Part shown: in pieces, positions 4,201-62,035 of the stretch
How positions within the stretch are numbered: the first letter of the stretch is position 1
Layout of the letters: every line of letters begins with the position of its first letter
Assembly (NCBI RefSeq): GCF_035083965.1
Contig: NC_089724.1
Span: forward strand, 6,922,501 to 6,986,500
Length of the DNA: 64,000 nt
DNA from: Branchiostoma lanceolatum
Lineage: Eukaryota; Chordata; Leptocardii; Amphioxiformes; Branchiostomatidae
Direction of reading: 5' to 3'
Made by a program: the position numbers and the translations under genes
The notes under the pieces: generated by a model
Databases searched by the model: none
What the model was told of the DNA's origin: nothing
The model's input: the letters and a program-made list of their open reading frames with translations, nothing else

Positions 4201-7200
4201 ACGATTTTTGTGTATTTTGCATTATTGCAATGATCTTAGACTTAAGCTATAGTCAAAAGTCATGTTAGACATCTCCATACTTAGCCCGGGTTACACATTG
4301 CCGAAAATGGCTATGACCAGTTTTTAGGCCACGCATATTTGGCGCCAAACATGCGCCTAACATGTCCCAACCATCTCCTAACTAGTAAATGACCTACTCC
4401 CGACTGAGCCCCGAATGCTTTCTAACCTACTCCCAACCATCCCAACCTCTAGCAGCAGACCGTCGAATCTCTCTTGACTAATCCTCGACCGATTGCTAAC
4501 CCTCTAACTCATTCAAATGGACATATTCAGCGACTTTCAAAATAGGGGCCTTTTTCGTTTTTAATCAAATTAATCCATGCTTCTAGTTAATATGTTGTAT
4601 ACATCACCGAGAGATCAAATTCGGATCACGGTAAGCTTCATGATTCAATACGGCTTTTCTTTGTTTTTGGTCGTGTGAAGCTTAAGGTCGGGGGTGATAT
4701 ACCAGCGGACGAATCCGAATACCAGCCGACCGAGCCAAACACCAGCCGACCACAGCCGATCTAGCTCCCGAATCACTCCTAACCTTGGTCGGGAGGAGGT
4801 CGGGAGGCCATGTTAAGTGTACATGGAATGAGTACAAAAATTCTCCTTACCGTCGGTCTTTCGGTCGTCACATATGTTGTCGGGTTAGGAGCCGTCTGGA
4901 CTGTTGTTATATCCGTCGTAACTGTTGTTGTTTTCTGAGCTGTTGTAGGGTTAGGAGTCGTCTGGGCTGTTGTTATATCCGTTGTAACTGTTGTTGTTTT
5001 ATGAGCTGTTGTAGGGTTAGGAGTCGTCTGGGCTGTTGTTATATCCGTGGTAATTGTTGTAGGGCGGTTCGTAGGGTTCTGTGTAGTCGAGATTGTTGTT
5101 TTACCTGAAGTAGGGTTCGGAGTTGTCGGGAGCGTAGTATGATATACTGTTGTCGGGACTGTCGTGAAATGTGTAGTAGGATGCTTTGTTGTCGGGATTG
5201 TCGTTATACCTGTAGTAGGGTTCTTTGTTGTCGGGACTGTCGTTTCAAGTGTTGACGGAAGTGTTGTTTTATGTGTAGTAGGGTTCGGTGTTGTCGAGAT
5301 TGCTGTTTTATGTGTAGTAGGGTTCGTTGTAGTCGAGATTGTTGTTTTATGTGTAGTAGGGTTCGGTGTAGTCGAGATTGTTGTTTTATGTGTAGTAGGG
5401 TTCTGTGTAGTCGAGATTGTTGTTTTATGTGTAGTAGGGTTCGGTGTTGTCGAGATTGTTGTTTTATGTGTAGTAGGGTTCGGTGTTGTCGAGATTATTG
5501 TTTTATGTGTAGTAGGGTTCTGTGTAGTCGATATTGTTGTTTTATATGTAGTAGGGTTCTGTGTAGTCGAGATTGTTGTTTTATGTGTAGTAGGGTTCTG
5601 TGTAGTCGAGATTGTTGTTTTACCTGCAGTAGGGTTCGGAGTTGTCGACAGTGTAGTACGATATACTGTTGTCGGGACTGTCGTGAAATGTGTAGTAGGA
5701 TGCTTTGTTGTCGGGATTGTCGTTATACCTGTAGTAGGGTTCTTTGTTGTCGGGACTGTCGTTTCAAGTGTTGACGGGAGTGTTGTTTTATGTGTAGTAG
5801 GGTTCTGTGTAGTCGAGATTGTTGTTTTATGTGAAGTAGGGTTCGGTGTTGTCGGGACTGTCGTGAAATGTGTAGTAGGATGCTTTGTTGTCGGGATTGT
5901 CGTTATACCTGTAGTAGGGTTCTTTGTTGTCGGGACTGTCGTTTCAAGTGTTGACGGGAGTGTTGTTTTATGTGTAGTAGGGTTCGGTGTAGTCGAGATT
6001 GTCGTTATACCTGTAGTAGGGTTCTTTGTTGTCGGGATTGTCGTTATACCTGTAGTAGGGTTCTTTGTTGTCGGGACTGTCGTTTCAAGTGTTGACGGGA
6101 GTGTTGTTTTATGTGTAGTAGGGTTCGGTGTAGTCGAGATTGTCGTTATACCTGTAGTAGGGTTCTTTGTTGTCGGGATTGTCGTTATACCTGTAGTAGG
6201 GTTCTTTGTTGTCGGGATTGTCGTTATACTTGTAGTAGGGTTCTTTGTTGTCGGGACTGTCGTTTCAAGTGTTGACGGGAGTGTTGTTTTATGTGTAGTA
6301 GGGTTCGGTGTTGTCGAGATTGTCGTTATACCTGTAGTAGGGTTCGGAGTTGTCGGGATTGTCGTTATACCTGTAGTAGGGTTCTTTGTTGTCGGGACTG
6401 TCGTTTCAAGTGTTGACGGGAGTGTTGTTTTATGTGTAGTAGGGTTCGGTGTAGTCGAGATTGTCGTTATACCTGTAGTAGGGTTCTTTGTTGTCGGGAT
6501 TGTCGTTATACCTGTAGTAGGGTTCTTTGTTGTCGGGATTGTCGTTATACTTGTAGTAGGGTTCTTTGTTGTCGGGACTGTCGTTTCAAGTGTTGACGGG
6601 AGTGTTGTTTTATGTGTAGTAGGGTTCGGTGTAGTCGAGATTGTCGTTATACCTGTAGTAGGGTTCTTTGTTGTCGGGATTGTCGTTATACCTGTAGTAG
6701 GGTTCTTTGTTGTCGGGACTGTCGTTTCAAGTGTTGACGGGAGTGTTGTTTTATGTGTAGTAGGGTTCGGTGTTGTCGAGATTGTCGTTATACCTGTAGT
6801 AGGGTTCGGAGTTGTCGGGAGCGTAGTATGATATACTGTTGTCGGGACTGTCGTGAAATGTGTAGTAGGATGCTTTGTTGTCGGGATTGTCGTTATACCT
6901 GTAGTAGGGTTCTTTGTTGTCGGGACTGTCGTTTCAAGTGTTGACGGGAGTGTTGTTTTATGTGTAGAAGCGTTCGGTGTTGTCAGGAGTGTCGTAAAAT
7001 GGGTAGTAGGATGATTAGTTGTCGGGATTGTCGTCTTATGTGTAGTAGGGATCGGTGTTGTCGAGAGTGTAGCGTAGTATTCTGTTGTCGGGACTGTCGT
7101 GACATGTGTAGTAGGGTGATTTGTTGTTGGGATTGTCGTTACATGTGTAGTAATGTCCTTCGTTGTTGGGATTGTCGTTACATGTGTAGTAATGTCCTTC

Positions 7201-10200
7201 GTTGTTGGAACTGTCGTGAAACTTGTAGTAGGGTGATGCGTTGTTGGGATTGTCGTTACATGTGTGGCAGAAATATTCTTTGTACTGTTTGTCTGAATGT
7301 AACTGGCGCGCGTGCTGTGATTATTAGGGACATCTCGCGGAAGTCGTTTCAAAACTTCAAGATTCTTTTGAAAGATTTCTTCAGTTTTAAGCCTTTTCAA
7401 TTCATCATCATTAAATGAATGTGCTGACATGGTTATGTGACCACCGTACTTTTTTGCTGACACCCGAGTTCTAGATTTTTCAGTTGTATGACTTTCTTCG
7501 TCTGCCATAAGTCTTGATGAATAAGGATGTGTAGTTTCCGATGTAACAGGTCCACGCTGTTTTTGTTCTGGAATCGTTGTCCTTCCGAAGTCTTCTGCAG
7601 GTCGAAAGCAGTGTTTGACATTTACAGGGAAGTATGGAACATTTTCTTGCGACTTATCCATGAAATCAGTCATGGTGCTAATCGTACAAAAGCGTAACTA
7701 TTGCAATTGAGTTAGCATTCAAAAAGGCATACAGCAGGCGTTATAATAGTGCAGTAAAGATGTTAACAATTAATCCAGGTAACGCGTTGGGCCCTTTGTT
7801 TTTGCAACCCACTCACACAATCAAAATGACTCTCGTCTCACAAATACATGAATATGACAATGATAGATAAGGCACCATTCTAGAAAATAATAAACATGGA
7901 TATTAAAGATATGTAAATCAACGGAATCGATAGAATATCGATAGAAATGTGATCGAACAGTATCAAGCTTTTATATTCTTAGGTTTTTATTTTACATAAG
8001 TTTATATCAACATTATATGTAATCACAGTTTCTAAAGCATAACGCTACTCACCTATTTGGCATACGAAGGACGGAAGTTGCGCTTTTCCCTCGGCGGCTG
8101 GGTTACAGTGATGTGGAGTCCACCTAAAGTCTAAGTCCATCCTCATGGACACGCAGTCTTTTGAGTCCGTATTCGGAACTGGCGACCACCTGCTGAAATT
8201 CCCCACCATCGTACCGTCCATGTACACCCACGTTCCCTCTGCGTCCAGGTCGTTTATTCCGATCATTGCCGAGTCCGACAACAGCGAGGCGATGACGTCA
8301 TGCTCGTACAGGCTTCCGGGGTTCGCAAGAGTGCCGCCATCTCGAACACAAGCCGCCTGTGCCTCGAAGAAGTCTACAGATGTCTTTATTACCCTGTAGC
8401 AATTGGGGCTGTGAAAGACGTATCCCCCCGGGCATGCTGTTGTAACAAATAAAAAAAAAAGAATAAATAAATGGCTCCGTCCCAGAGGTGTCGCCAAAAA
8501 AACTTGAACAAGACAGGTCAATTTTGTAATTGTGGAGACACAAGTGATATAACCTACATGCATGATACAAATCAAAGGTGATAGCTGACTATTTGATACA
8601 TAATGTGCAACAGGGAAGGCGTCAATCGGGCACTCGGAGGCATGAGTCATGAGAAAGCAAGCGTAGGGCTAGAGCTCAGTACAGGCAATATTTCGGCCGC
8701 CATGAAGACTCTTTATTATGAATTAATGAAGACCTTTATTGTATAGAAATACCCCCTGGGTTGAATACAGGTCACAACAAAATAAAAATATACAAATACA
8801 TCTATGCATTGTCAAACAAGAGTTCCAGGAACTCAAACCTTCGTCAAGGCTGGTTTGTTTTGTTGGCACCTATCCAAGGGTATATCTGGAAAACAGCCGT
8901 ATGGAATTTGTCAGGAATAAATCTGATGACAGTTGACATAACTGGTTTGTATTTGCAGGTAAGTTTTCGTAGTCAGTTGTTTTGATTCTTGAAATAATGA
9001 CACTTTCTTTTACTCCACTTCCCCATATGGCTACATGCATTAATAGCATTTATTGTAACACTTTAGTCTCCCCTATTGTTAGACTCTCAGATTTCGAGTT
9101 CCCACGGCCGGTAAACCCCACAATATTGAAAGAAATCGACTGTAACAGTAGCTCAACGTCACAGACCGCACATACTAGGAAGTTATCCATTACGTGTTGA
9201 CACTAGAAACCCGCGATTAACCGCTAAAATGTGAACATCTTACTATTATGTAAAAAAAATAAACCCTCTGAAAATAAATATGGCCTTCCGTGTCCATCGT
9301 TGCCCCAAAATATAATATTTCCATGCATGTACGGCATCCTTTAAAAGATCGGTATCCGCGCTACGCAATACGCTGCTAGTTTTACTGTCGCCATGCCTGA
9401 TAATGGCGGAGAGTGGCGGCCATGTTTCACGATCTCGCGCTGTTGTTCACTGAATCATATCGGACATATTTCTGCCGTTTTAGCGGTGTTGTAGCCTCAA
9501 AACACATATCACAAGGGAAGTAAAGTTATGATTGTTGTTTTAACGTGTTACATGTCTTCTACGACAAATAATTCTTCCGCCGCGCTGCCGATACTACGGA
9601 TACTAGTAGTGCTTAGGAAATTATTATTATTATTCCCCGTGCACACGCTCGTACCCAGCGCCGTGAAGACTGAGCCATAGGTTTAAATCGTGGGCTTAGA
9701 ATTATGTCACATCAACTGTCAATCAAGCTCAACAAAATAAACTTCTCTAATTCACAGCTGTCATTTTTGTTCCGTACTTTTCTTGTTCCTCCGCTCGTAG
9801 TTGTGTACACAAGTACGTAAAGGGCGACCTTCTACACAGTGTTACATAACCGTTATTTCTTCTAACTGACACATTGGAAACAAGACGACAGTTCACTATC
9901 TTGGGAGGTAAAATGTTGCTCAAGTGTGTTATGTTATAACAAACATATTTACAAAGTACCTCATCTTTGGCGCTGTTAGGGTGTTAAGATTACCTCTCTA
10001 CATTGCGCTCGGAGGGGAGTTATGTCACGAACCCTACTTTGCCACAGAAGGGAGTTAGGCTACGATGTAAACAGAGACTGTCAACGTTATTCTTATTTAT
10101 ATAAAAGTTTTATTTTCAAATGTCAGTGTAGCGTCTTTTTTTCCCGTTTACTTTGTAAAGTCATAGCGATATTCATCGATTTGTTACCAGTGACGCCAGG

Positions 10201-20701: not shown

Positions 20702-23700
20702 CTACACCACTGTCGTGTCCAGAGTCACAAACCACTTCCCAGTGAGATCACGTTTGGCTACGTTGAAGGTCAACGGACTTCCCGAAACCTCAACACTTTC
20801 ATCCAGGATGCAGAGGTGGACAGAGATGGCAAACGGTCTCCTCGGACAGTGGAAGGCCACGATGAAGTCCCCCTTGCGGCCGGGGTCGCACTGCACTTCA
20901 CATGGCATCTCGTGTTGGCCCAGTGTCGCCACTGCTCGGAGGTCACCGGCCTGAATGCTGTACCGCGCCTGCGCAACAATATTGTGAAATTGCATGTTAA
21001 AAATTGTAAGGGGGCATGCGGGATCAGGAGATTTTTGGAGGAAAGCATGCCCTTCAACGGTAGTAAATTCGTTATTATGCTTAAATGTCCCGATTGGAAG
21101 AAGGTGCCCCGACGGGATTTGTTTCCTTCACTTTCGTACGTGGCCCCTTGGGACACCCTGCGGCTACCGGGCTATTTTAGGGCCCGGTCGGGACCTCGAA
21201 TCGTTTTAGCTCGGACTTAAAATCAACCCAAGACCCGGTAACAAATAGACGCCTTGAGGTAACCGTGCGAACACTCGGAGTTACACACACCCCCCTCCCC
21301 TACCCGCTAGTCTACCGGGACAAATGTGTGTCTTCGGGGCCCGGTCGGGACTACACTCCCTACGGGCACCGGCGCAATTGGAACCTATTAAGTAAGCTTT
21401 ACTAAGACATTTTCATAATCCACCTACATGAACGGTTTCAAGCTAACGGGATGGACATATCGGAGAAAATCGGACTGAAAGGCGGTTGACCAACCTTTCG
21501 TTGGCATACTGATATGCGGCACTCTTGTCCAGACTGCCATGTCCGGACTTCTCCATCCGGGCACTGAAGGTAGAAGAACTTCGCCGACAGCATACAGGCG
21601 GTGTAGTTGATCTGATATAGTAATTCATTGATAAATTCATAACAAGATACTATCGAGTAGCCTCTACCAGGCCCCGTCCTATCGCTGGGAAAATCGTAGA
21701 AATCGGCCGAGGTAGTCTGCTATACAGGGTAGTCTGCTATACAGTGAAGCTCCATTATCGATGGTGGAGCTTCACAGTATAGTGGACTACCCTGTATAGC
21801 AGACTACCTCGGCCGATTTCTACTATTTTCCCAGCGATAGGACTGGGCCTGGTAGAGGATAACTATCGAGAACGATGACGTATTGGTCACACAATTATCC
21901 CCCATTGTAAGATCGATGACACTGTCACGTCAACAATAGAAAACATGCCTGGTGGTTTAACCTTCTCCCCGCTGCCTGACTTGTATTGACTTGTTTGCCA
22001 AATGGCTACTTCGCTGTGCTAAAGGTTAAACATACATGTATTACGAAAACAAAACTTGCCCAATCGCTTGGCCGCAATTTTGCCCAACTGTATGATCTCG
22101 CGATATTTCGCGTGAACGAGATTAGAATAAGTTTAATGGCCATCGGGTATTCACGATTTTCTAAAGCACGCTCTAATGCGTTCTACTCACAAGCATATCG
22201 ATCTAGAATTAAACGGTACAATCTTGTGTAGATGGCAGTTAGAGTCCTAGCTAGCATCCCACCTTCCCGCCTAGAATCAATCAACATACGACGAACAGGA
22301 AACCATACGAGCGTACAATGAAAAACGTACAACTAAAAGTCACCGCAGGCCCTACAAACAGTGCACATTGTTATGTGCGTAATGTGAAAAAAACACACCT
22401 GCTGTTGTGTTTCCAGTTCATCTAGCCACGAGGCTGCGAGCCTGGTAGAGGAAAAAAAAGAAGACTTATGAATATGCAGTTCGTAATATGTTAGTGACTA
22501 GTACCCGGTTACTTTCTCTATTTCCTGACCTCAGTTACGCATAATTCGTAACGCCTATTTAGGCCTACATTACCTTGGACGGCAAAATCATAACTCAAGC
22601 CGCATATTTATACAAACATGATGCACCTCATGTGAATTATGACACCAGTATCAACAATTTCTCGCCTGTCGTTACGTATGATGAACAATATGAAATACAA
22701 TACAACGTCAACTATTAGTAATAACTGTATGTATATATTTACGTATTTGGAATTATGAATACTTAAATTTTTCTGAAAAGACAATCAAACGTAGAGAAAG
22801 ACCTTGAAGCCACTGGAAGCTCCTGGTAGAGGGCAAAGAGCACAACACCGCGACAGGTGGAAAAAGACGGCCCGATGTGCGTCAATGGCACGGGAGGAAC
22901 TAAGATGCTAGGGTTAAGTCTTTCTCTGGACATACCTTTTGATCTTGTCAGTATCTTTGTAATCGAGCGGCAGTTCGGCGATGCCAACCCTTGCTGGAGC
23001 GTCCAGACGAACGAAACAGTCGTTGTCCTTCTCCAGCTCAACCCAGTGCTGCCTAGTTCTGACGACGAAGCCCAGCACCGCGGCCCCGATTTTGGCGATG
23101 CCGCCTGGCTTGCCGCCGTCACTGCTTGCCTTGTCGGGGTCACCGCCGCATCCCACCGAGAGCATCGTGTCGATCCGCCGGTCAGGCCAAACTTCTTTCG
23201 CCAGCTTCTTGGCCTCCCCGGCAGGGCAATTTGCGCCAATTCCTCCGTCACAGAAGTTCCTCTGCTCTCCTTTGTAGATGAGCTGAACCGGCGGAAAGTA
23301 TGTCGGCGCCGCTGTACTTGCCAATACCGCCTCGCGAGCCTTCAGAGAACAGTCGTGGCCAGAAATGGTGACGGTTTTCACCCTGTCTATATCGCAAGCA
23401 CAGCAAGCTACCACTGGCAGCACCAGCTTTGTTGGAGGGGTAAACTCAGTTTCCTCCTCTTCCATGACCATCAACTGTCGCCGCCCCATATGTTGAAACA
23501 TTTTACTTCCGTTGTCCATGACTACCGAAGACCGTCGCCGGCCCGCCGTTTGGAACAGTTTTTGGCCGCTTTCCATAACTACCGACGACCGTCGCTTCAT
23601 AGGTTCGAACTGTGTATGTCCATTTTCTTCTTTCAGCTCATGCAGCATGTCCACGCTCATTGATAGCCGTCTGGTCCCGGGGCGAAGGCCTCTTGGACGA

Positions 23701-25976
23701 AGTGTTTCAGATGGCTGCGATTGGGAAAGAGAGAATGGCGACGACGGGCTTACCCGTGAGTCGATCTTCAACGGTACACCACTCAGACGAGTCTCTCCAT
23801 AAATATCTGCTAGAACCTTCTGAAGGTTCTTGTTGGAATAAACGTTTCCACTCAGGACCGCAAGCGTCGTACCCGAAAACCTCCTCCAGCCAGATTTTTG
23901 GAAGACCGTCGATAGCAAATTCTCGAGCATATTGCGAGCATTTCTCGGGCTGTAGTTCATCCTGCCGATGGCCATGCCTACTGCAGAACCGATACTTGTA
24001 CCGATGATGAGGTCGAACAGCTCCCGAAACGGGATACCAGGAGCAAAGGGGGTAATCCTTTTGTGAACAGCGTCTAGGACCGTAGCTTGGAAAATGCCCT
24101 TCGCTCCGCCACCGTCTAAAGCGAGGACCCGAACTCCGATCGAGTTCGACTCCGGGATGGAAACGGGGTCTTCCTGAGTTTTAGAGGATGTTGATTGCGC
24201 GAGAGACGTTCTGCTGTCTTCGAGATTCTCTTGACAGCCGAAGGGACAGCTGACATTTCCCTCGACGGTCAAGAGCTTTAGGTCTGCGGCACACATGCGG
24301 TGACCACACGGTAGGGGAGGCTCTGCTTGTCCCGAGAAGCAGATTGTACAGACATCTGTGGATTTATTGAGATCAGACTCCTCGAAACGTTGGAGCACCT
24401 CTACCTGAGCCTTGGCGATCTCTCTGATGTTTTTCAACGCCATCTCCTCTTGTATCTGCTTGATGCACTCGTCACTTGTTGGGCTTGTCGCCCGCCCTTC
24501 AAATTCGCCCTCCCATTTGCTGCAGTCTTCCTCTTTCGTCCAGAAGCAGGAGCTAGTTTTGATTGCCCTTGCATCGAGATTTTCGTGGAAGTTTCCGTGT
24601 TCTCCGGCTGTCAGAGTGCACCGGAACATCTCGCCGTCTTCAAGGGGAGGGGATTCTGCACGGCATGGGCAATAGCTCTCAACCGTCTCTCTCGAGTTTT
24701 CCAGTATGTTCTGTATCTCTGGCTCCATTGCTTCGATGAAGTCGTCGTCTTCGCCGTACATTGACGCGTTTGCGGCCAAGGTATACGCTATGGAACCCGT
24801 GAGACTCCCGATGGCGGTTTCCACAAGTTTGTCGTAGAAGTCGCGGTACTTTGTGATCCCACCTTCTTGATCGGGGTTCGATCCCAAAATGCTTTCACTG
24901 ACCTGTGTAAAAAATCGATCGAAAAATATCGGTTTCTTGTCGATACGGCCTAGCCGTTCGGTCACCAATCCTGGAAGATTTTGGGAAAATTCTCCACGCG
25001 AAGAATCATTGTCTTTGAGTTTGGCGTTGACGCATTGAATCATGTCTTCGCATAGGGTCCAGAACAGCTTTTCCGACAAGAGGCAGGAAATGCCAACTGA
25101 TAGAATTTTAGTTGCCTGTCGTGTGTGGCTTACATCTCGACATAATTCTCCGATCTTGGACTTGAGAACATTCACAGACTGCTTGAAGGTTTCTTCGTTG
25201 GTGTTCTGTGGTAACGACATTACTTTAACAGACTGGTACAGTTTCTGTAGCTCTTTGGACATGTGGATGTTGTCTAGGAAAGAATCGGTGGTGTCGATGC
25301 CGTCGATGTTGGAGTTGATTGCTGCGTTCTTGTTTTGTAGAATGACAAGGCTTGGTTTCCATTCATGCTCAACGCCTTCGGATGCATCCCGAGCAATAGC
25401 AGCTATCGTTTCAAGCATACTGAAGTCACACACAGGACTCTGGTGCACGTAGACTACTACGTCGCTTAGGAGAAAGGCTAGTGATGGGAGGGTTTTCATA
25501 GTCAGCTGTTTCCGCTTCTCAAGGTGTCTGCCAACGATTCTATGCAGCCAATGCACTATCGGCACTTCCTCTAGGAGGTGCTGGTTGACCGTTCGGGGTA
25601 TCTGTCCGCCAGCGCCCTCAAAATCTGCAAGTATGACCCGTTGATAGTCCATGGACCCTCCAGGTGAAGGTAGAGTCGTGCATGGGTAAACATAAACGCC
25701 CGCTGTTTCCGTCAACATCTGGTGCGGTGCCGCGATGATCGGGAGACAGGCTGCGTCTACGCTATCCTCTAGAAGACTACATACCAAGCTGCTTTTCCCA
25801 ACTCCGGCGCCGCCAATGAAGGAGATGACGGGAACATGATCCTTATTGTTCGCGCCGGACGACAACTCCCTCAACAAGGCTTCGTTCAGCGCTAAAGAAT
25901 CCCCTGTGTCTGTGTCGGGATCGAGTTGGAGAAGCTGGTACCGCTGGAATGCTGTTGGTTGTCTCTTCTCGTTCAT
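20702..25976 (-). CDS. GTPase-RING-patatin-filamin multidomain protein (1116 aa)
   Basis: Three coding exons: 25976-22936, 22441-22399 (43 nt) and 20968-20702, joined in phases 2 and 0 with good GT-AG sites; total 1116 codons plus TAG. Domains in order: P-loop GTPase-like (GGAGVGKSS, Lys61; DFEG 118-121; QNKN 214-217), a long helical linker, RING finger (Cys543, Cys546, Cys557, His559, Cys562, Cys577, Cys581), then a patatin phospholipase (oxyanion loop DGGGAKG 621-627, nucleophile GTSIG with Ser661, catalytic dyad DGG with Asp910). The last 88 residues look like a filamin-type Ig repeat (ending VEVSGSPLTFNV). The enzyme should hydrolyse phospholipid acyl chains; RING implies ubiquitin ligation, and the GTPase self-assembly or regulation. 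No signal peptide or membrane span, so cytosolic. The start has good context (ACAAAATGA) after a TTCCAG acceptor at 25996, so a noncoding first exon exists upstream. Individual domains are clear; combined function is inference. An immune effector role is attractive but untested. Confidence 0.85.
21105..21390. repeat. GC-rich dispersed repeat, copy 1
   Basis: GC-rich block (GGGCCCGGTCGGGAC, CTACGGGCACCGGCGCAATT) in an intron, matching in the opposite orientation the block at 51375-51625. No coding frame retained. Confidence 0.55.
21661..21858. mobile_element. Long foldback element in the second patatin-gene intron
   Basis: About 95-bp arms: CCTCTACCAGGCCCCGTCCT and onward pairs with the right end GGGCCTGGTAGAGG, through GGTAGTCTGCTATACAGGGT. 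CTATCGAG occurs just outside each end (about 21650 and 21862), an 8-bp target duplication suggesting a hAT-type MITE. Confidence 0.7.
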
Positions 25977-34534: not shown

Positions 34535-35904
34535 ATGGCGCTCAAAACAGGTAGGTACCGGGACAAGTGTAAGGCATCTAGATCTGATAAGGGTTTCGAA
34601 GGTACAACCCCACAGTTCTAGTAAAGGAGAGATAATTGGGCACAGTACACGACAAAAGCACTGTATAGGGGGAGGGGGGTACGATAACTTGAGCCGTCCA
34701 GTAGCCATGTGTAGGGTAGTGCCGTTGGTTTTTTTCTAGCTTTGAATTCATCATCTTTAGATGCGTTACTCTATGGTTTTTACAAGCAAGGTTAAGAACC
34801 AAATTCTAAAAGTAGCAGATATACACGGTATTCTGCTGTGTCGATCAGGTTTATGTAAGGCGTTTTTATTTCTGTCAACTCTATATCATCACTGTCGAAC
34901 ACATCTGTGCATTGTCTATCTACAGGACATTGGCTGCCGCACTCTACGTTACGTAGGGTGACGCTCCTAGTGATCGTCCTGGCAACCGTCATTATTCTCC
35001 TGACGAATATCGGCCTCGACTATGTCCGCCATGTTTTCCCACAATCCGTCACCAGCTTCAGCGCGTCATGTCAGGCGGAAGTCACTGCCCCACCCATCGT
35101 TCTCGTCGACGCCGTCTTTCCGGTAAAGATCCAAGTTCTCCGTGGTAACATCAAATACATCCCCCGGTCTAACGCGACAGTCCGTTTCAGCCCTGGCAAC
35201 ACCGCCCATGTCCAAACAGTGACGTTGTATTACGGCGTCGGGACAACAAATCTGACCATTTCCAAAGCCGGAGTCTTGCAGCTATCCGTTACCGTGGAGA
35301 CGACAGGTGACCACGCCCCTACCGAGACATGCCAAGCCAGTGTCAGAATCAAAGCCGCTCACTTATCCGACCGTGAGGTGGGGTACAAACTGATCCGCAA
35401 GGGAACACTGGAAGGCGATGCACTCGAGTGGAGCGCAGGGTTTGTTGTGGTAGAGGGTCCTGTGACTGTGCCAAAGTCAGCTACACTAGTGGTGGACCCA
35501 GGAGTGTTTACCTTGCTGCATTCAGGAGCGAGTATAAACGTTCTAGGGAAGGCAGCGATCGGAGCTCCAGCCGGCCAACCCGTCGTCTTCACCGTCCATC
35601 CGAACGAAAGTGGCGAACGGAGTCCGTGGGGTGGTTTGCAGTTTGGTCGAAACTCGCTAGGGGCACTGCACAACACTTGGCTTACGCAAGGAGGCGCATC
35701 TGCAGATCAACACTCCAGGTCAGTCAGTAAACACGACTTATAACTTTTCTCCAAGCCCAGACAGGCGCTCGCACACTCGCGCACACGCACAGACACGTTC
35801 ATACATACACAAATAGACAAACGCACACACACGCTCACAAACACATGCACACACACGCACACATACACACACACACACACGCGCGCACACGCACACACAC
35901 ACAC

Positions 35905-35981
<77 letters not shown>

Positions 35982-38900
35982 TATGTTTATGTATATCAAA
36001 CAACCTACTAAAACAAATTACTCCTTGATGCTTGTAATTTCTCTTGCGTTATTTGTTATCGTCAAGGTCATATTATCCTTCTCACAGATTTGCTACCAGT
36101 AACGCTGGCGTGGTATTAAGCGTTGAGGAGGGAGCGGAGGTCGATTTTTCTGGCGGAGGTGTTGTCGATAATGCCGGTCCGGGAGTAAGAGGCACGCGTT
36201 GCACCATCAAGGTAAAGCGGCTTGGACAATTTTCACTGGTATAGGTGATATCTTGTGCCAATAAATAAATCTGATACTGTCTGCAAAAGGGACTTGAAGG
36301 CTTTAGATATTGATACGGAGCACAGGGAGGACCTTGCAAGTGACCGTTCCAAGTGGAGATGCACACTGTCCAGACAGCTCAAATCAGGAGAAGCCAGACT
36401 GATGCGCAACGCAGAAGAAAGGCGGAACCGCAGAAAAGAGCTTTGCAACAGAACTGAGTCAGCTTACAGATGTGATTTTTGTGGCAGAGACTGCCATTCT
36501 CGTATAGGGCTGTTTAGCCATAGTCGATGCTGTAGGGCTGTCGTGAATTAGGATTTTACCATGGTCAATACTGACCGACGGAGGCCATATACATACTGTA
36601 AATGCAGAACTGTTTGCGAGGATTTAATTTCGCGGTAGGGAGAAAATGGAGTGTTCGCGGTGGTTTTGAATTTGCGTTTGAAACCATAGTAGCGCTACAG
36701 TCACACAATTGAACGGTTTTTCGCGGTGGTCTTAAGTTCGCGGGAAAGAGTTCAGCACTAAAACCGCGAACGTGAAACCGCCGCGAACATTTCTGCATTT
36801 ACAGAAGTTATGCTTCTGTACAGTTTATCTGTAGTATTAACCTTCAATTCTTTTTGCCCTAGCTGAAAAATATGACCATCTCACGGTGCAGAAATGGCGG
36901 CTACGTTCAGCAGACAACGGTTACCATGGAGAACGTTTACGTCATCGAAATCAGTCGTAACCACGTGGCATCATCTCAGCCAATCGGAGACGGCTTTGCG
37001 TTCAACCAACCTCAACTGTCATCTGCCGATAAAGCCTTATCACGGATATCTAACAGGTAGCTTATTGCTTTACAAAATAAGAATTCATGCGATGTACGAG
37101 GCTCTGGATTGTTTCGTGATTAATCCTCTGAAACAAATATTTAACATATGTTATACAAGCGACCTATAATCTAACCACCTAGAGGCAGGAATCTCCTTAT
37201 AGCGTAGTTAGTCTCTGGTAGAGACTAAGTCTGAAGTATGATTGCGTTGATGGTGCGAATTACAGTAAGTGGAGAAGGATTTGTTACAGATTCTGATCTG
37301 ATCTTTCTTTCTTTCTTGCCTTTAATGCCCACGGTCTTAATGACGACCATTCTGGCATGTTGGGAAAGTAATGTTAAGTGCCTTTCCCAAGGGCACAAGA
37401 TCGGTGACACAGCAGGATTCGAACCCGGGACCACTTGGTTCTGAGACGAACACACTGTCGTTGCGCCACACGACACCACGATCTAGTCCCATACTCATGC
37501 CTGAGGGTCGATCGGTTACAGATTAATGACTACAATTTAAGAAAAATGTTCCATATTTGTGTCAAAGGCAGTTTGACACAGCACCCTCTTATTACTCGAT
37601 TATTGTTTTTCTCTCGTCTATCCATTCTCAGTGTTTTTACTGGTGGAGGCGGAGTAGGAATAGCAATTTCCGGGACCAGTCTAAACCTTGAGTCCACCAT
37701 CGTGGAGGATTTTTCCAAGGCATGCGTGTCAACATCTGGCAAGGTGAATACCGTCACCATACATAACTCGATCATGCGCAGTTGCTCCGTTGGTCTTCGC
37801 GCAAAGGATGACGGTAAGCAAAACGTCCACGTGACCAACAGCGTCATGGTTCAGAACGAGGTCGGAGTGCTGTATGGGGAGAGGGACGCAACAACGTCTG
37901 AGAGTGGGACGTTCATCTTAAGGAATTCCGTGTCGATGGAAAACAGCGAAAAGAACTTGAGAGTTTTCAGTGGAGGGCTAGAGCAGCCTGACACGGACAT
38001 AGGGGCACGAAACGTGAAACTAACGTGTTTCTTTGTAAGCAGAGGCTCCGCTGTTGAAACAAGCCGTACAACGTTTAGTATCAAACCCTTTGCATCTTGT
38101 CAACAGCCTAAAATACACCTTGCCCATTCAGGTTGTGACTTCGCTATGGATCTGTTGCCGTCAAAGTGTTTGCTGTCAGACTACACACCTCAGGGAAAAC
38201 GAACTCACATCCAGCTGCAGAGACTAGATCTGTGTAGAGACTGCTGTAAGAACGCATCTTCTCTGGAGTTCGAAGATAACTATGGCCACTGGAGCATGAG
38301 AAACATACGGGACATGAAACGCGCCACTATTTACACAGGAAAACCCAACGAAGGTTGTGGAGTGACGTTTTCTACGGACCTGTACCAACATATAGACAGC
38401 GACTGTATCGTCCAGAAAGTTCACGTCAAGTCGGCCTACAGTGATGTTACTCACTATCAGGTGAATAATTGATAGTAGTTGTTCCTTTGTAAAGAACTTT
38501 TGATAGTAGTATTAGAATAAGTAGGTGAAACGGGAGCTCCTAGTAATTATATATCATTGTGTGTGACGTAAGTTTTAATGATTATTAAAGATAAAGGTCT
38601 TTTAAGACCACGAGGTCGTAGGGGCAGTGGGTTGTTATCCACGGTGTCTAGGGCATTATATTAGAAGGCGAAGCCCAACCCTCTCTTTCCACCGCCTTTT
38701 ACTTCCCAACTGAGGTCGGTACCCACCTTCTTGTGACGTGAGAAAAGTCGTGTGCTTTTCCTAAGGACACAACGTCTAGCCAGAAATGCCAGGCATCGAA
38801 CCGGTGACCTCTAGATAGTCCTCGAACATAGCCCCTCGGCCATTGGTCCTTATTATTATATCTGTCATCATTTAACTACGGCCTTTGTACAAAAGGTGTC

Positions 38901-41900: not shown

Positions 41901-43463
41901 GGGTGTACATCCCTTTAATTGCGAACTGCGTAAATCGAGAAGTCAAAATGGTTTGTATGATATATAGTACATGGTTTGTCGGAAAACGTTCGATTATGGA
42001 CCTTCCAGCGACTTTACAACGTAGTGCAGCGGAACATCCGGTTTTCATATTTTTTACTCTTAAAATGTGATGGAGATGGTATGTTTAAGTCGCGTGGGTT
42101 CTTTTGATAGTAGATATAAAATTAATATTGTAGAATAAATTTAATCGGATGAAAACAATGCACAGGCAATGATCAAAGGTTTAATTTCTTCAGCAACTTT
42201 ACTTCTTATCTCGTTCCTTTACAGGCTCCTAGCCTCGGGACGCAGTTTCGGAAGGAAGTTGAATCGCACCCTGCCATGGCACCGCTCGTGTTGAAAGAAG
42301 ACCCTGAGATTTATGAAGAACTGGACGGGCGCGTGTCCATCCTCGTCTCGGAATACAACGCTATTTGCGAGGGTGCTAACACCGACAGGTTCGACAGTTC
42401 TCTGAGAAAGGTGTACAAGACATCGCCTATCACCGAATCGTACTTAGTGGACGGTAGAGACTACATTCTTGCAAAGTTCGTGGACGGTACAGTAGCGTAC
42501 TTGAAAGTTGTCGGCGGTGAGATGCGAGAGGACGTGGATGGGTATGTGGTTAATGGAGGCCTAGCCGAGCTGGTAGCGTATCATCTAGACCGTTTGCTCG
42601 GGATGGGTCGAGTGGCTGTCGCCGCAGCACGACGGTTGCGACTGGACGAAACTGTCCCGATAAACGGCGTCATTAACGAGAAATGGGAGGTTTTGGAAGA
42701 CTTCGATGGTAAAAAAGATACGCTGGGGCGGTACCTTACAGATGCTGAAGCAAAGACGACATCTAGAAGCATACAGTGGATAGCGCGCCATCTTCAGAAG
42801 AGTCAACATGAAGTTTATCTTTCTCTTGATGTTGTAGTTGTGGGGAAAGTGAAGTCCCCAAAAGAAAATGTAGAGTTACATCCACAAGTCCGAGAATTCT
42901 TCAAGCATAGTGCAGACTTTGTTAATCTCGAAAACGTTGGAGTGACAAGACAGATGTTACGGGATTTGGCTAATATTTTTGTGTTTGATTTCTTAATTCA
43001 TAATCCTACAAGAAAAAATCTGGCTATCTCGGAGTTACGTTTTGTGACTGACGGTAACGATAAAGCATTTTGGCCGGACGTTTCAATCAAAGCATGCGAC
43101 GCCATTTTGAGATGCCCTGCATTGCTTCAACCCGAAGGTACCCGAGCATCGACGGAGAAACACGACGCATGCCCGAAGATCTGTCCGAATACTGACGTGA
43201 TTCCTTCGGACCAATTCGTGAACTGTCGTTTTACAGTGCAAACTTTTTCCACACTTAAACGCTTTAACGTAGGCAAGGGATATGACCGACTTCTCTCGTC
43301 TAAACTACGACAATCTCTTATGAATGAGACGATTGATATCGATTCGTTCAAATCTTACTTTGGGAAAGCTAACTTATATGAAGGGTTGGGCGCTAGGTTT
43401 TTTCGGTTAACACAACATATGAAGAAATGCATGGTCAGATTTGGTAATGGAATCTTCATATGA
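34535..43463 (+). CDS. Type II membrane protein: beta-helix ectodomain plus Fam20-like kinase domain (1241 aa)
   Basis: Nine exons, all phases consistent: 34535-34550, 34926-35718, 36088-36211, 36863-37056, 37632-38460, 39077-39287, 40174-40384, 41288-41396, 42225-43463 (TGA). The ATG has good context (GACATGG). Residues 17-36 are one hydrophobic segment (VTLLVIVLATVIILLTNIG) after a short basic tail, giving a Golgi/secretory type II protein. Residues about 60-160 are Ig-like beta sequence; about 190-480 form a right-handed beta-helix (WGGLQFGRNS, TVTIHNSIMRSCSVG, NVHVTNSVMVQNEVG). A Cys-rich middle follows. From about residue 830 a Fam20/four-jointed/GASK-like kinase fold is suggested by AYLKVVGG (Lys923), GGLAELVAYHLDRLLGMGRV (Glu944), FDFLIHNPTRKN and DGNDKAF. 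The place of the catalytic Asp in N-x-D-R is Thr, so it may be a pseudokinase. Likely modifies or scaffolds secreted proteins; substrate unknown. Exon chain is strong, kinase-family call is moderate. Confidence 0.82.
35763..35977. repeat. (CA)n microsatellite in kinase-gene intron 2
   Basis: Interrupted CA-rich tract, pure from about 35909 to 35977. Lies 45 nt after the exon donor at 35718. Confidence 0.95.
36258..36551 (+). pseudogene. C-terminal fragment of a non-LTR retrotransposon ORF
   Basis: About 98 codons in an intron of the kinase gene with the typical tail of LINE endonuclease/reverse-transcriptase proteins: CKRDLKALDIDTEHREDLAS, a KWRCTLSRQLKSGE segment, then a CCHH-like knuckle YRCDFCGRDCHSRIGLFSHS and stop. 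The fragment is 5'-truncated, lacks the RT domain, but has no internal stop, so insertion is probably recent. Same strand as the host gene; no splice signals join it. Confidence 0.7.
36594..36804. mobile_element. MITE of the CTGTAAATGCAGAA family, copy 1
   Basis: Ends TACTGTAAATGCAGAA and TTTCTGCATTTACAG are inverted repeats; the body holds repeated CGCGGTGGTTTTnAnTTnGC and ACCGCGAAC pairs. Copies at 41425-41621 and 49691-50006. Confidence 0.7.
37370..37482 (-). repeat. tRNA-derived SINE
   Basis: Minus strand shows GGTGTCGTGTGGCGCAACGA (A-box-like) and GGTCCCGGGTTCGAATCCTG (canonical B box), then GGGAAAGGCACTTAACATTA tail. In an intron of the kinase gene. Not a functional tRNA: no acceptor stem was found. 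Confidence 0.65.
38615..38850 (-). repeat. tRNA-derived SINE copy in kinase-gene intron
   Basis: On the minus strand AATGGCCGAGGGGCTA resembles an A box and GTCACCGGTTCGATGCCTGG a B box; the tail TGTGTCCTTAGGAAAAGCAC matches the SINE tail type elsewhere in the window. Confidence 0.5.
39310..39474. mobile_element. hAT-like MITE, copy 2 (8-bp TSD)
   Basis: A 149-bp element (39318-39466), ends TACTCTCC / GGAGAGTA, hairpin core (TTGTATAGCCAACC pairing with GGTTGGCTATAC), flanked by exact 8-bp repeats ATAATTTT. Same subterminal CTCTCCAAGCAGAG as the 18241 copy although interiors differ. Confidence 0.8.
39773..40146. mobile_element. MITE with TTTAAAGGCAACC ends
   Basis: Left end TTTTAAAGGCAACCAAAACA and right end TTGGGTTTCCTTTAAAA are inverted repeats. 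The body contains a tandem GAGCCGAACAATGATCCCCTTATT duplication (shown here as two adjacent ~22-bp copies near 39908 and 39931). Inverted relative to the inner element at 26795-27160. Confidence 0.65.
40462..40622. mobile_element. Foldback MITE with CCTCTACC ends
   Basis: AAGCCTCTACCACTACCAGG at the left pairs with GAGCCTGGTAGAGGCT at the right; inner arms GTGGCTGGAAAGAGT and CTCTTTCCAGCCAC pair as well. Related to 21661-21858. Confidence 0.6.
40983..41212. mobile_element. MITE with CCCCCATTCCAC ends (uninterrupted copy)
   Basis: Ends CCCCCATTCCAC and GTGGAATGGGGG are perfect inverted repeats, 230 bp apart. The body matches the split element at 26624-27212. Confidence 0.7.
41425..41621. mobile_element. 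MITE of the CTGTAAATGCAGAA family, copy 2
   Basis: Starts GTAAATGCAGAAAT, ends CCTGCATTTAG, with ACCGCGAAAACCGCGAAC inside. About 30 bp after the donor of the 41288-41396 exon. Confidence 0.65.
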
Positions 43464-45091: not shown

Positions 45092-48000
45092 TCAGAAGTC
45101 CTCCTGTTCGTACAGCCGATCCAGAAACTCAGCGACAGGGTCGCGCCTCCACTTCTGCTGGGACTGGCTGTACATATCGCCTTCCGTCATCGCCCTGTTG
45201 GGAACGGAAAACGATTATAACGTACACTATGCAGCAGCGCCGCCTTGCTGTTTTGTTTACACTGCAATGGATGTTCGAAACCGTTTGAAAATGGCATCTA
45301 TAGTGCAGGGGGTGAGAGTGAAGATTGGTATTATCCCTAGTAGTGCCACTCTGGGCTAAGAGCTTCACAATTACTTCAATTTGCACAGCGCAAGTTTTTT
45401 TGGTTAAAAACCGTGATCATGAAGTGGTCACGATTTCTTTTAAGCCGTCAAAGAGTGCACCTTTGAGATATGAAGATAAAAGCGTGGGGGAGTATTGTAC
45501 CTTTTATATGACAGAGGATACAAAGGTTAGAGTAATTGAAGGACTAGTAAAGAGAGATCTAAGAGCTTTAATCCACACAGGACACACATAGGAGATAATA
45601 AGTTCCAGTCCACGGGCAGTAGCCTTATACATTAGATGCAGTGCTAGTGAGACAATTGTGGTGATGTCTTAACGCGCTGCCACATTCGCCGTGGCGCAAA
45701 GTGCAAAACGATCATTGTGACATCAGGCGTGACTTGGTGCATCTTGTGCAGTCAATGCTAGAATTTGTGTTTTACTAGTGTGGGTATTTTGATTTGATTC
45801 GATTTGATCCCTTTGGTGCATGATGATTGACGTGAGTTTGTGAACGGTGCTCCACTCAGTGCAGGCCGGACTCCGGCTACCTGGTCGTCAGGATGGCCAT
45901 CAAAAGCTTACGGGCCTCGGACTCCTCACGCCCGATGGGCGGCTGGTCCACCAGCCCCTGGTCTGTCAAAGCCCGTCGCTTTCTGCTAGCCACGCCCTCT
46001 GCTGCGGAGCGCTTGGCCACTCCGCCCGATCGCTTCCCGACAGCCTGTTCCAGGAGGTCCTTGATGTACTGGCGGGCCTCGGCCTGTTCAAGCCGGGAGG
46101 CCAGCGCGCTAGTGACCCCCTGGTCCCCAAGCTGGCGCTTGGAGGCTTGCAGTTCCTCCTGCGCAGCTGGACTGAACCTTTTCCCGATGGCCTGAGCCAT
46201 CAGGTTCTGGATCATCCTCCTGGCCTCGGCTTCGCTCAGCTTGCTCGCGAGGTCACTGGTGAACCCTTGGTCACCCAGAGCCCTGCGGTCCCTGCGAGAA
46301 CAGTGGAACATTCTTGTCATGCATCTTTTTTCCAAGACGTTTGAGGATCATCCATGACTACTGACAGTTTGCTCAAGCAAGAACGGTTCAGTGAGGGAGA
46401 AGATTCAGAGATCTTGTCTTTTGTATCAGGATTGAAATGACTATCCATATTTCACTGCAGCATTTTCGTTACCAGAATGCAGTATGTGGTACCTGCACAG
46501 ACGGCTTTTTTTTCTAAATCTTGAGAGTGGTTTAAATGAAACCAAATGCAATTTCTTTCTTGAGCACTTGCACTGTCTTTGTCAGGATGATCCCCAGAAG
46601 CTGCACACCACCCTCACCTTTTACCCTGTTTAGCCATGAGGCTTTGGAGCAGCCGGCGGGCCTCGGCCTCCCTTAGTCTGACGGACATCTCGCTGGTGAT
46701 CGACTGGTCTCCAAGCTGCCGTTTCTCTCTCATTCTACAGTAGAAATAAGCAACATTCACGTGGTCCTACGAAACATTCACGTGATCCTTAGAAACATTC
46801 CCGTGGTCTTCAGAAACCTTCATGTGGACCTAAGAAATATTCACGTGGTTCCAAAAAACATTCACGTGGGCCTAAGAAACACTCACGTGGTCACAAGAAA
46901 CATTCACGTTATCCTACGAGACATTCTCGTGCTCCTAAGAAACATTCACGTGCTCCTAAGAAACATTCACGTGATTCTAAGAAATATTCACGTGATCATT
47001 AGAAGCATTCACGTGGTCCTAAGAAACATTCACGTGATTCTAAGAAACATTCACGTGATTCTAAGAAACATTCACGTGACCATTAGAAACATTCACGTGG
47101 TCCTGAGAAGAATTCACGTGGTCCTAAGAAACATTCACGTGGTCCTAAGAAACATTCACGTGATCCTATGTAGTCATCATCACCCATCAGCAAAGGTCAC
47201 CACCTGTACCCTTCTACAGGCCTTGGAAACGGACACGACATTACATTGAGCACTAATGCCAACACGACATACAAACATGGAGAAAATAGAGGATATTCAA
47301 CACTAACTAACGTATACTTCTGATCATGATAACATCGTCTTTATAGCATTGGAAATAGCAATTTTCAATCTATGTTTCTGATATTAACCTCTAATCAACT
47401 GGTCAATATAGGATTTATCTCAAGCCTAAAGTACAATAATGTATCAACGAGGTTGGTTTTGTACTAAGAAACATCGTTTGATATGATTTAAATGGCATTA
47501 CTATCTAAATATTAGTTCTTTTTCCCTCGTAAAAAGCCATCTTCCACGTAAATTCTATAAATACGTACTGTGCGTCAACAACGTTAATGTCCGTGCATTT
47601 GCAAAACAAACATGCTTGCGTTCTGTAAAACCATTTGATGTCTGTCACGGTGTTAGGTATTTGATGTCTGACATGTAACGCTTGAGAATATAATGTTAAT
47701 AGCCGTGCTTATGCAAACCTCTCATGTTATATGGCACATCAGTGGATTGTTTGAGCTAATGTTTGGAAACCGCGGTCACCCGACAGCTTTAAAGGACCAG
47801 GGCGCGTTTGATCACAACCATTGATGTACCCCGGCTGTTGAGCATTGTCGTCTGCGTTGTTAATAGCAGAGTGACACAAAAGGGCGTGTCGAACGTACAG
47901 CAGATGTTCTTTGTCAGCCAATCAGCACATCAGAACAAAATCCAGTTACGACCAAAGCAACTGAAAATGCGGTAATGTCATATAGTCTCAATGGCCATGA

Positions 48001-60812: not shown

Positions 60813-61468
60813 TGGGGAGAGGACGATTATACACATGCAGCTCCACGGCATATACTACTTACGTTTAAAATGTGGCGTGTCATCATGGGAGTTCTTCAGA
60901 CAGTATAATGTTACTTTCTATTTTCAACCTCTGTATTTGAAATAATTGTATCTGATGGCTTTTAGACGAAGAGCTGGCCACAAATAGGGCTTTTAATACT
61001 TTAGTGGAATATTTAGAACATGTAGATAATTTTGGTCCAAGGGCACTATACAGTAGTAAATATTACCACAATGTTGTGATGGTGTTAATTGTAATACATT
61101 TCATAATTTTTCAGAACATTGTGCTTGCACAACCCCAATTTACCGACATTAACCTGCATGTGCAGTGGTGCTTTGAGTATGTGGATGTCCCTCAGCCTGT
61201 CTCAAATGAAATGGATCATTTAGCCACATAGTACTTCCGTATTGTATTGTATTTGATAGTTTTTGAACTTAGAAATACATTATGTTGAGATATGAAATGA
61301 TACATATGTTACATACAGGCTTTCCCAAACTTCCTGTCATTCAAAATGATGTTTTGGGTATAGTTAAATCAGGAATGCAAGCACTTAGTCGGATCCGTTA
61401 CGGATTCGTTGTTGGGTCCACCTGTATCCGTCAGTATTCACCATTTTCTTCAAAATACAGAAAAATCC

Positions 61469-62035
61469 CTGTACGCATCCGTCAGGATCGGTGGCATTTC
61501 CGTACAGTGTACGGCTCCGTATTCGTCGAAAATCCCTTACTTTCGGATTCTTCAGGAAATATTCCATAAACCGGTGCGGAAATAGTCGGATACGTTACAC
61601 GAATCCGCATGTATCCGTCAGTATCCGCCAAAAATACAGAAAAATTCCTGTTCGTATCCGTCAGGATCGGTGGCATTTCCGTACAGTGTACGGCTCCGTA
61701 TTCGTCGAAAATCCCTTACTTTCGGATTCTTCAGGAAATATTCCATATACCGGTGCGGAAATAGTCGGATACGTTACACGAATCCGCATGTATCCGTCAG
61801 TATCCGACAAAAATACAGAAAAATTCCTGTTCGTATCCGTCAGGATCGGTGGCATTTCCGTACAGTGTACGGCTCCGTATTCGTCGCAAATCCCTTACTT
61901 TCGGATTCTTCAGGAAATATTCCATATACCGGTGCGGAAATTGTCGGATATCTTACACGAATCCGCATGTATCCGTCATTATCCGTCAGTATCCGACAAA
62001 AATACAGAAAAATCCCGGTACGTATACGCCGGGAA
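61469..62035. repeat. 179-bp tandem repeat, about three units
   Basis: GTGGCATTTCCGTACAGTGT occurs at 61491, 61670 and 61849, exactly 179 bp apart, with very few differences between units. Rich in CGGAT/ATCCG words, like the 58560-59520 block. Confidence 0.92.

Follow-up and report, generated by a model that had tools for sequence, protein, structure and literature searches.

A four-exon amphioxus gene that encodes one protein lies on the minus strand of Branchiostoma lanceolatum contig NC_089724.1, from position 25976 to position 20702 of the 64,000-nucleotide window analysed here (6,922,501 to 6,986,500 of the contig). The comparisons support the fusion, in this one gene, of a P-loop domain, a RING, a complete patatin-like phospholipase domain and a filamin-like end, because an apparent ortholog has all four parts and a paralog has the RING, patatin and filamin-like parts. 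Computation established the gene structure, the patatin family and the predicted patatin fold with its active-site residues, and indicated a RING-type ligand pattern. The protein is probably intracellular.

The gene model was guided by the apparent ortholog P0003. Four exons and three GT-AG introns with consistent phases gave 3468 bp and 1155 residues between the ATG (25974-25976) and the stop codon (20702-20704); all features of the gene are on the minus strand. Exon 1 (22936-25976; 1013 codons plus two bases; donor AAAAG/gtatgt) covers the protein from the P-loop domain through the greater part of the patatin domain. Its product, an open frame, is 100% identical to the uncharacterized B. lanceolatum protein P0002 of NCBI and 76% identical to P0003 over 99%. 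Exon 2 (22399-22441; ..R LAASWLDELETQQQ) ends the patatin domain, is present in the annotated P0002, and its residues have homologues in P0003 and the paralog P0006. Exon 3 (21495-21611; INYTACMLSAKFFYLQ..QRK) consists of 39 codons, is in frame at both ends and starts the filamin-like domain; it was aligned to P0003 and P0006, in which its residues are conserved. Exon 4 (20702-20968; ARYSIQAGDL..TTVV) holds the body of this domain, and residues 1016-1155 are 83% identical to P0003. The splice phases of the initial annotation were correct, whereas its 1116-residue protein was incomplete: exons 1, 2 and 4 joined in frame reproduce exactly 1116 residues, and the earlier model therefore omits one in-frame exon, 21611-21495. 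P0002 runs from exon 2 into intron 2 (22333-22441) and stops after VCFFHITHITMCTVCRACGDF, an ending that would reflect either an annotation error or an isoform that retains the intron and lacks the filamin end. No second copy of the gene was found in the window by tblastn up to E 0.01.

P0003 (LOC144868313, an uncharacterized protein of Branchiostoma floridae x B. japonicum) carries all domains through the last exon and retains the active-site residues. It differs from the window protein in an insert that is 19 residues shorter, in CDGA for CDGG and in KNKS for QNKN. The paralog P0006 (B. lanceolatum, 549 aa), named calcium-independent phospholipase A2-gamma-like by NCBI, aligns to P0003 from shortly upstream of the RING to the filamin-like end, with 39% identity over 603 columns and the same order of RING, patatin and filamin-like end as in the window protein. 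Hence, these three parts form a unit common to two genes. Unlike the window protein, P0006 as annotated has neither the P-loop nor the Cys/His-rich part. A split gene or a chance joining of exons is made unlikely by the architecture of P0003 and P0006. The apparent ortholog thus bore out the four-part fusion proposed in the initial annotation, and the paralog did so for its last three domains, although P0002 lacks the filamin-like end.

The patatin domain (22936-24140; residues 613 to about 1022, ending in exon 2) matched PF01734 with 80 bits against a cut-off of 27.7, and P0003, P0002 and P0006 also matched. The active site was complete, as had been claimed, and the numbering of Ser661 and Asp910 was right. 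The oxyanion-hole glycine motif DGGGAKG (24096-24116; residues 621-627) is followed by the nucleophile elbow GTSIG (23988-24002; residues 659-663, with Ser661) and by the catalytic Asp motif CDGG (23241-23252; residues 909-912, with Asp910), which is CDGA in P0003 and CDGG in P0006. The oxyanion glycine, GxSxG Ser and DG[GA] Asp motifs are retained in both of these proteins. The predicted structure has a patatin fold, to which CapV, patatin-17 and calcium-independent phospholipase A2-beta (iPLA2-beta) all match, the latter two about as well as CapV. Patatin-17 and iPLA2-beta (6aun) have other partner domains, whereas the window protein has an insert between the Ser and Asp halves. This low-complexity, presumably disordered insert (23427-23771; residues 736-850) contains RRLS, KRRSS and RRRSS sites, and the latter two sit in repeats of about 19 residues. 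The pattern [RK]RxS, selected after the sequence was seen, matched six times at four places in the window protein (two overlapping pairs), and five matches at three places were in the insert; 0.59 matches were expected by chance in the protein, and six were reached in 1 of 5000 shuffles. P0003 has four matches (13 of 5000 shuffles), of which three lie in its insert, and its counterpart of the insert, residues 742-832, had a predicted local distance difference test score (pLDDT) of <50.

The N-terminal P-loop domain (25107-25844; residues about 45-290) contains the Walker A motif GGAGVGKSS (25788-25814; residues 55-63, with Lys61) and the Walker B or switch II-type motif DFEG (25614-25625; residues 118-121), which is invariant in P0003. 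Both motifs of the initial annotation were confirmed in exon 1. Their spacing is plausibly GTPase-like under a pattern written only after the sequence was known; Walker A followed by hhhDxxG at 40-80 residues did not arise in 20000 shuffles of residues 1-290 and arose once in 20000 of the whole protein, and Walker A alone arose in 305 and 1638 of 20000, respectively. The core of the domain (residues 45-215) is 86% identical to P0003. The profiles of P-loop families were all below cut-off (best RsgA 0.038, NACHT 0.13, MMR_HSR1 0.14 and AAA_22 0.16), and the best PDB profile match for the N-terminal part, Rab31 (E 0.021), covered the P-loop region only. A protein search with residues 1-530, which detects exact-word-sharing relatives only, gave two matches up to E 10 among 8000 candidates scored, both from amphioxus. 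QNKN had been read as the guanine-specificity motif, a reading that did not hold: P0003 has KNKS, and the Asp of NKxD is in neither protein. GBP and VLIG themselves depart from (N/T)KxD, and membership of a GBP/VLIG-type family, a lead suggested by the P-loop, DFEG, VHQSP and a CPC..H..H..C stretch, was not confirmed by Pfam, PDB sequence and protein (residues 1-530) searches. Because no profile passed its cut-off, the PDB match was partial, the predicted structure was of low confidence and QNKN is KNKS in P0003, the N-terminal part is best termed a P-loop, GTPase-like domain. The GTPase domain of the initial annotation retains its Walker A and DFEG motifs at GTPase-like spacing, but matches no GTPase family profile above cut-off and has no canonical G4 motif. 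The domain is followed by a predicted helical region (24672-25121; residues about 286-435), which is helical in the P0003 model at a block pLDDT of 36-68, and by a Cys/His-rich stretch (24465-24671; residues 436-504) with no Pfam match. The six Cys and two His of this stretch are all kept in P0003. It may bind zinc and is a candidate new zinc module between the P-loop domain and the RING.

The RING (24234-24350; residues 543-581, C543 to C581) ends with CPFGC, and its sixth ligand position is occupied by Asp. The zf-C3HC4 profile (cut-off 21) gave 25.6 bits for the piece scanned alone and 15.2 bits for P0003. The filamin-like fold of the C-terminal end is moderately supported. The PDB profile match to the TRIM45 filamin domain had an E-value of 0.049, and no filamin-type profile was above the Pfam cut-off in the window protein or P0003. 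The filamin-like end of the initial annotation was thus upheld by the colinearity of P0003 and P0006 up to it, but not by a Pfam filamin profile.

A nucleotide-gated lipase was taken as the working model by analogy, because fungal NLRs join patatin to nucleotide switches. In fungal patatin NLRs such as PLP-1, a nucleotide switch and a patatin effector share one protein (PMC4986451, PMC10197012), as would be the case in the window protein, and the patatin domain of PLP-1 is essential for cell death (PMC10197012). The fungal patatin is almost always fused to NB-ARC (PMC4986451), in contrast to the GTPase-like P-loop of the window protein, and the excerpts of these papers do not mention RING or filamin parts for the fungal proteins. 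We infer the activities, their coupling and the immune setting of the window protein, and an immune role is a guess. The N-terminal nucleotide switch would control assembly of the protein, which would gather the patatin domains and place them on a membrane, where Ser661 and Asp910 would hydrolyse phospholipid. Kinases that target the RRxS insert might adjust access to the active site. The RING might ubiquitinate the complex or neighbouring molecules, either as a signal or as an off switch, and a partner might dock at the filamin-like domain. Cell-autonomous defence or regulated membrane damage would be the likeliest setting, as with the patatin effectors of fungal NLRs. The overall reading, a phospholipase gated by nucleotide that has E3 and docking modules and works in defence or regulated membrane damage, is accordingly tentative, at somewhat below even chances.

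Several observations weigh against this reading. No Pfam or PDB match assigns the P-loop domain to a GTPase family, its G4 motif is non-canonical (QNKN in the window protein and KNKS in P0003 for (N/T)KxD), and its predicted structure was poor in two predictions, which rested on two distinct sequences in this part (block pLDDT 22-48 over most of residues 41-260). P0006 as annotated has no P-loop domain, and the remaining domains may therefore work without it. The RING named in the initial annotation has a RING-like ligand pattern and exceeds the zf-C3HC4 cut-off as a piece, but reaches 20.7 bits in the full protein, just under 21. Its sixth ligand is Asp in all three sequences, the last ligand is Cys, Cys and His, and its fold was predicted with low confidence (pLDDT <50 over residues 538-609 of P0003). 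The single [RK]RxS match of P0006 is outside the insert (1237 of 5000 shuffles), and its insert has no RRxS; the sites are therefore not a feature of the whole family. Furthermore, P0002, the sole annotated B. lanceolatum model found, is without the filamin-like end.

Three other explanations were weighed. Patatin lipases take part in the bacterial antiphage system CBASS, and the protein could be a direct descendant of CBASS CapV, acquired by horizontal transfer and activated by the cyclic nucleotide of a cGAS-like enzyme. The best PDB sequence matches, namely Patatin (9wn0, 9wn1, 9kh6), the CBASS cGAMP-activated phospholipase (9kh7) and CapV (8zr9), rank before patatin-17 and iPLA2-beta and would agree with such a descent, as would the CapV fold match and the matches of CBASS phospholipase models to the amphioxus proteins at 1e-31 to 1e-35. 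However, patatin-17 and iPLA2-beta are about equal in fold match, and the same models scored better in all six scanned proteins out of 35 non-amphioxus relatives (8e-38 to 1.8e-78). Those six include the liverwort protein P0005 and P0007 (1.9e-49), the best PDB match of which is iPLA2-beta and which we take to be iPLA2-like. The NCBIfam CBASS_lipase equivalog gave 89.6 bits on P0003, far below its cut-off of 200. A tree was built from 38 rows. Its amphioxus members, three in number, formed one clade (99), which together with ten further rows, including P0005 and P0007, was split from a Legionella CBASS lipase (SH-like approximate likelihood ratio test 95). The row closest to the amphioxus clade, P0029, had a very long branch. 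The tree was unrooted and quick, had long branches and one CBASS-named row, and left out most animal patatins; an organism was named for one of the ten grouped rows (P0005). Kinship of the amphioxus patatin domain to eukaryotic patatins is thus likely rather than shown. The CBASS link of the initial annotation proved generic, since the relatives score better and the tree separates the Legionella protein. CapV and CapE phospholipases differ accordingly from the window protein, whose apparent ortholog is under the CBASS cut-off and across the tree split from the CBASS-named row. CBASS descent was not supported as specific by the control scan and the tree, and the CapV account is highly improbable.

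The main rival is a lipid-remodelling enzyme. In this account, a TRIM-like E3 scaffold of RING and filamin acquired a lipase of the iPLA2 type that serves to remodel lipids or to release lipid mediators, the P-loop was a later regulatory addition, and no immune effector is involved. TRIM45, TRIM3 and TRIM71/Lin41 resemble the window protein in having a RING plus a C-side filamin-type domain, which is the overall TRIM layout; among the matches of the RING and filamin parts are TRIM32, TRIM45, TRIM3 and Lin41. Moreover, P0006 has RING, patatin and filamin without the P-loop domain under its phospholipase A2-gamma-like name, and the patatin domain groups in the tree with the plant protein and the iPLA2-like protein. 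Against this account, patatin stands between RING and filamin in the window protein, and no B-box was found after the RING by Pfam up to E 1 and 5 in the window protein and P0003. The top RING match is RNF141, with CBL and TRAF6 scoring on par with TRIMs, and the gene model of P0006 may be truncated. With 86% identity, the P-loop core belongs to the best-conserved regions, which suggests that it has a function. The TRIM-like account is hence possible, but rather doubtful. The full-length protein could also be a minor product, in which case the domains are real and most transcripts end in intron 2 or skip exon 3, leaving the filamin domain absent or partial. The extension of exon 2 in P0002 and an exon 3 that is skippable without frame change fit this explanation, but P0003 and P0006 are colinear to the filamin-like end with exon 3 included, and residues 1016-1155 keep their 83% identity to P0003; we consider it improbable.

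NCBI already lists P0002 and P0003 as uncharacterized proteins. The component domains are of known kinds, and within the searches made both their combination and the phospho-type insert of the lipase are new. No paper on this protein, P0002 or P0003 was found among open-licence PMC papers, judged by titles and the starts of abstracts, and the outline and abstract of PMC2575513 do not mention lipase, GTPase, RING, ubiquitin or filamin. In lancelets, new domain pairs arise commonly (PMC2575513), with an estimated gain of >10 per million years (PMC4284660), and the fusion in itself is therefore less surprising.

Elsewhere in the window, a 972-residue Thr/Pro/Asn-rich mucin-like open reading frame of 39-bp and longer repeat units (4779-7697, minus strand) adjoins a C-type lectin exon (8045-8668, minus strand; Pfam 2.3e-11). 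Two open reading frames on the plus strand, 34859-35743 and 37408-38472, gave weak Ig-like (E 0.12) and beta-helix (E 0.001, below cut-off) matches and are perhaps exons of one secreted or membrane gene. A 436-residue open frame (42153-43463, plus strand) had a weak FAM198 match (E 0.1) and possibly encodes a Golgi kinase-like protein. Tandem arrays were found at 46747-47168 (21-bp unit, 20 copies) and 61452-61985 (179-bp unit, three copies, 97% match).

In fungi and plants, patatin lipases contribute to defence and cell death (PMC4986451, PMC10197012), and an animal protein that wires a patatin lipase to a nucleotide switch and an E3 would test whether this executioner logic is shared by animals. 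The proposal is directly testable with the apparent ortholog, the paralog and the sites mapped here (Ser661, Asp910, Lys61 and RRxS). In the boldest form of the proposal, which is unlikely, the protein would be an immune executioner specific to one animal lineage. Patatin would be assembled and unleashed on intracellular membranes by a GTPase-type switch instead of NB-ARC, NACHT or a cyclic nucleotide, and the protein's own E3 domain and a kinase-controlled loop would be built-in brakes. If true, this executioner would be the animal counterpart of fungal patatin NLRs and CBASS lipases, reached via a different switch.

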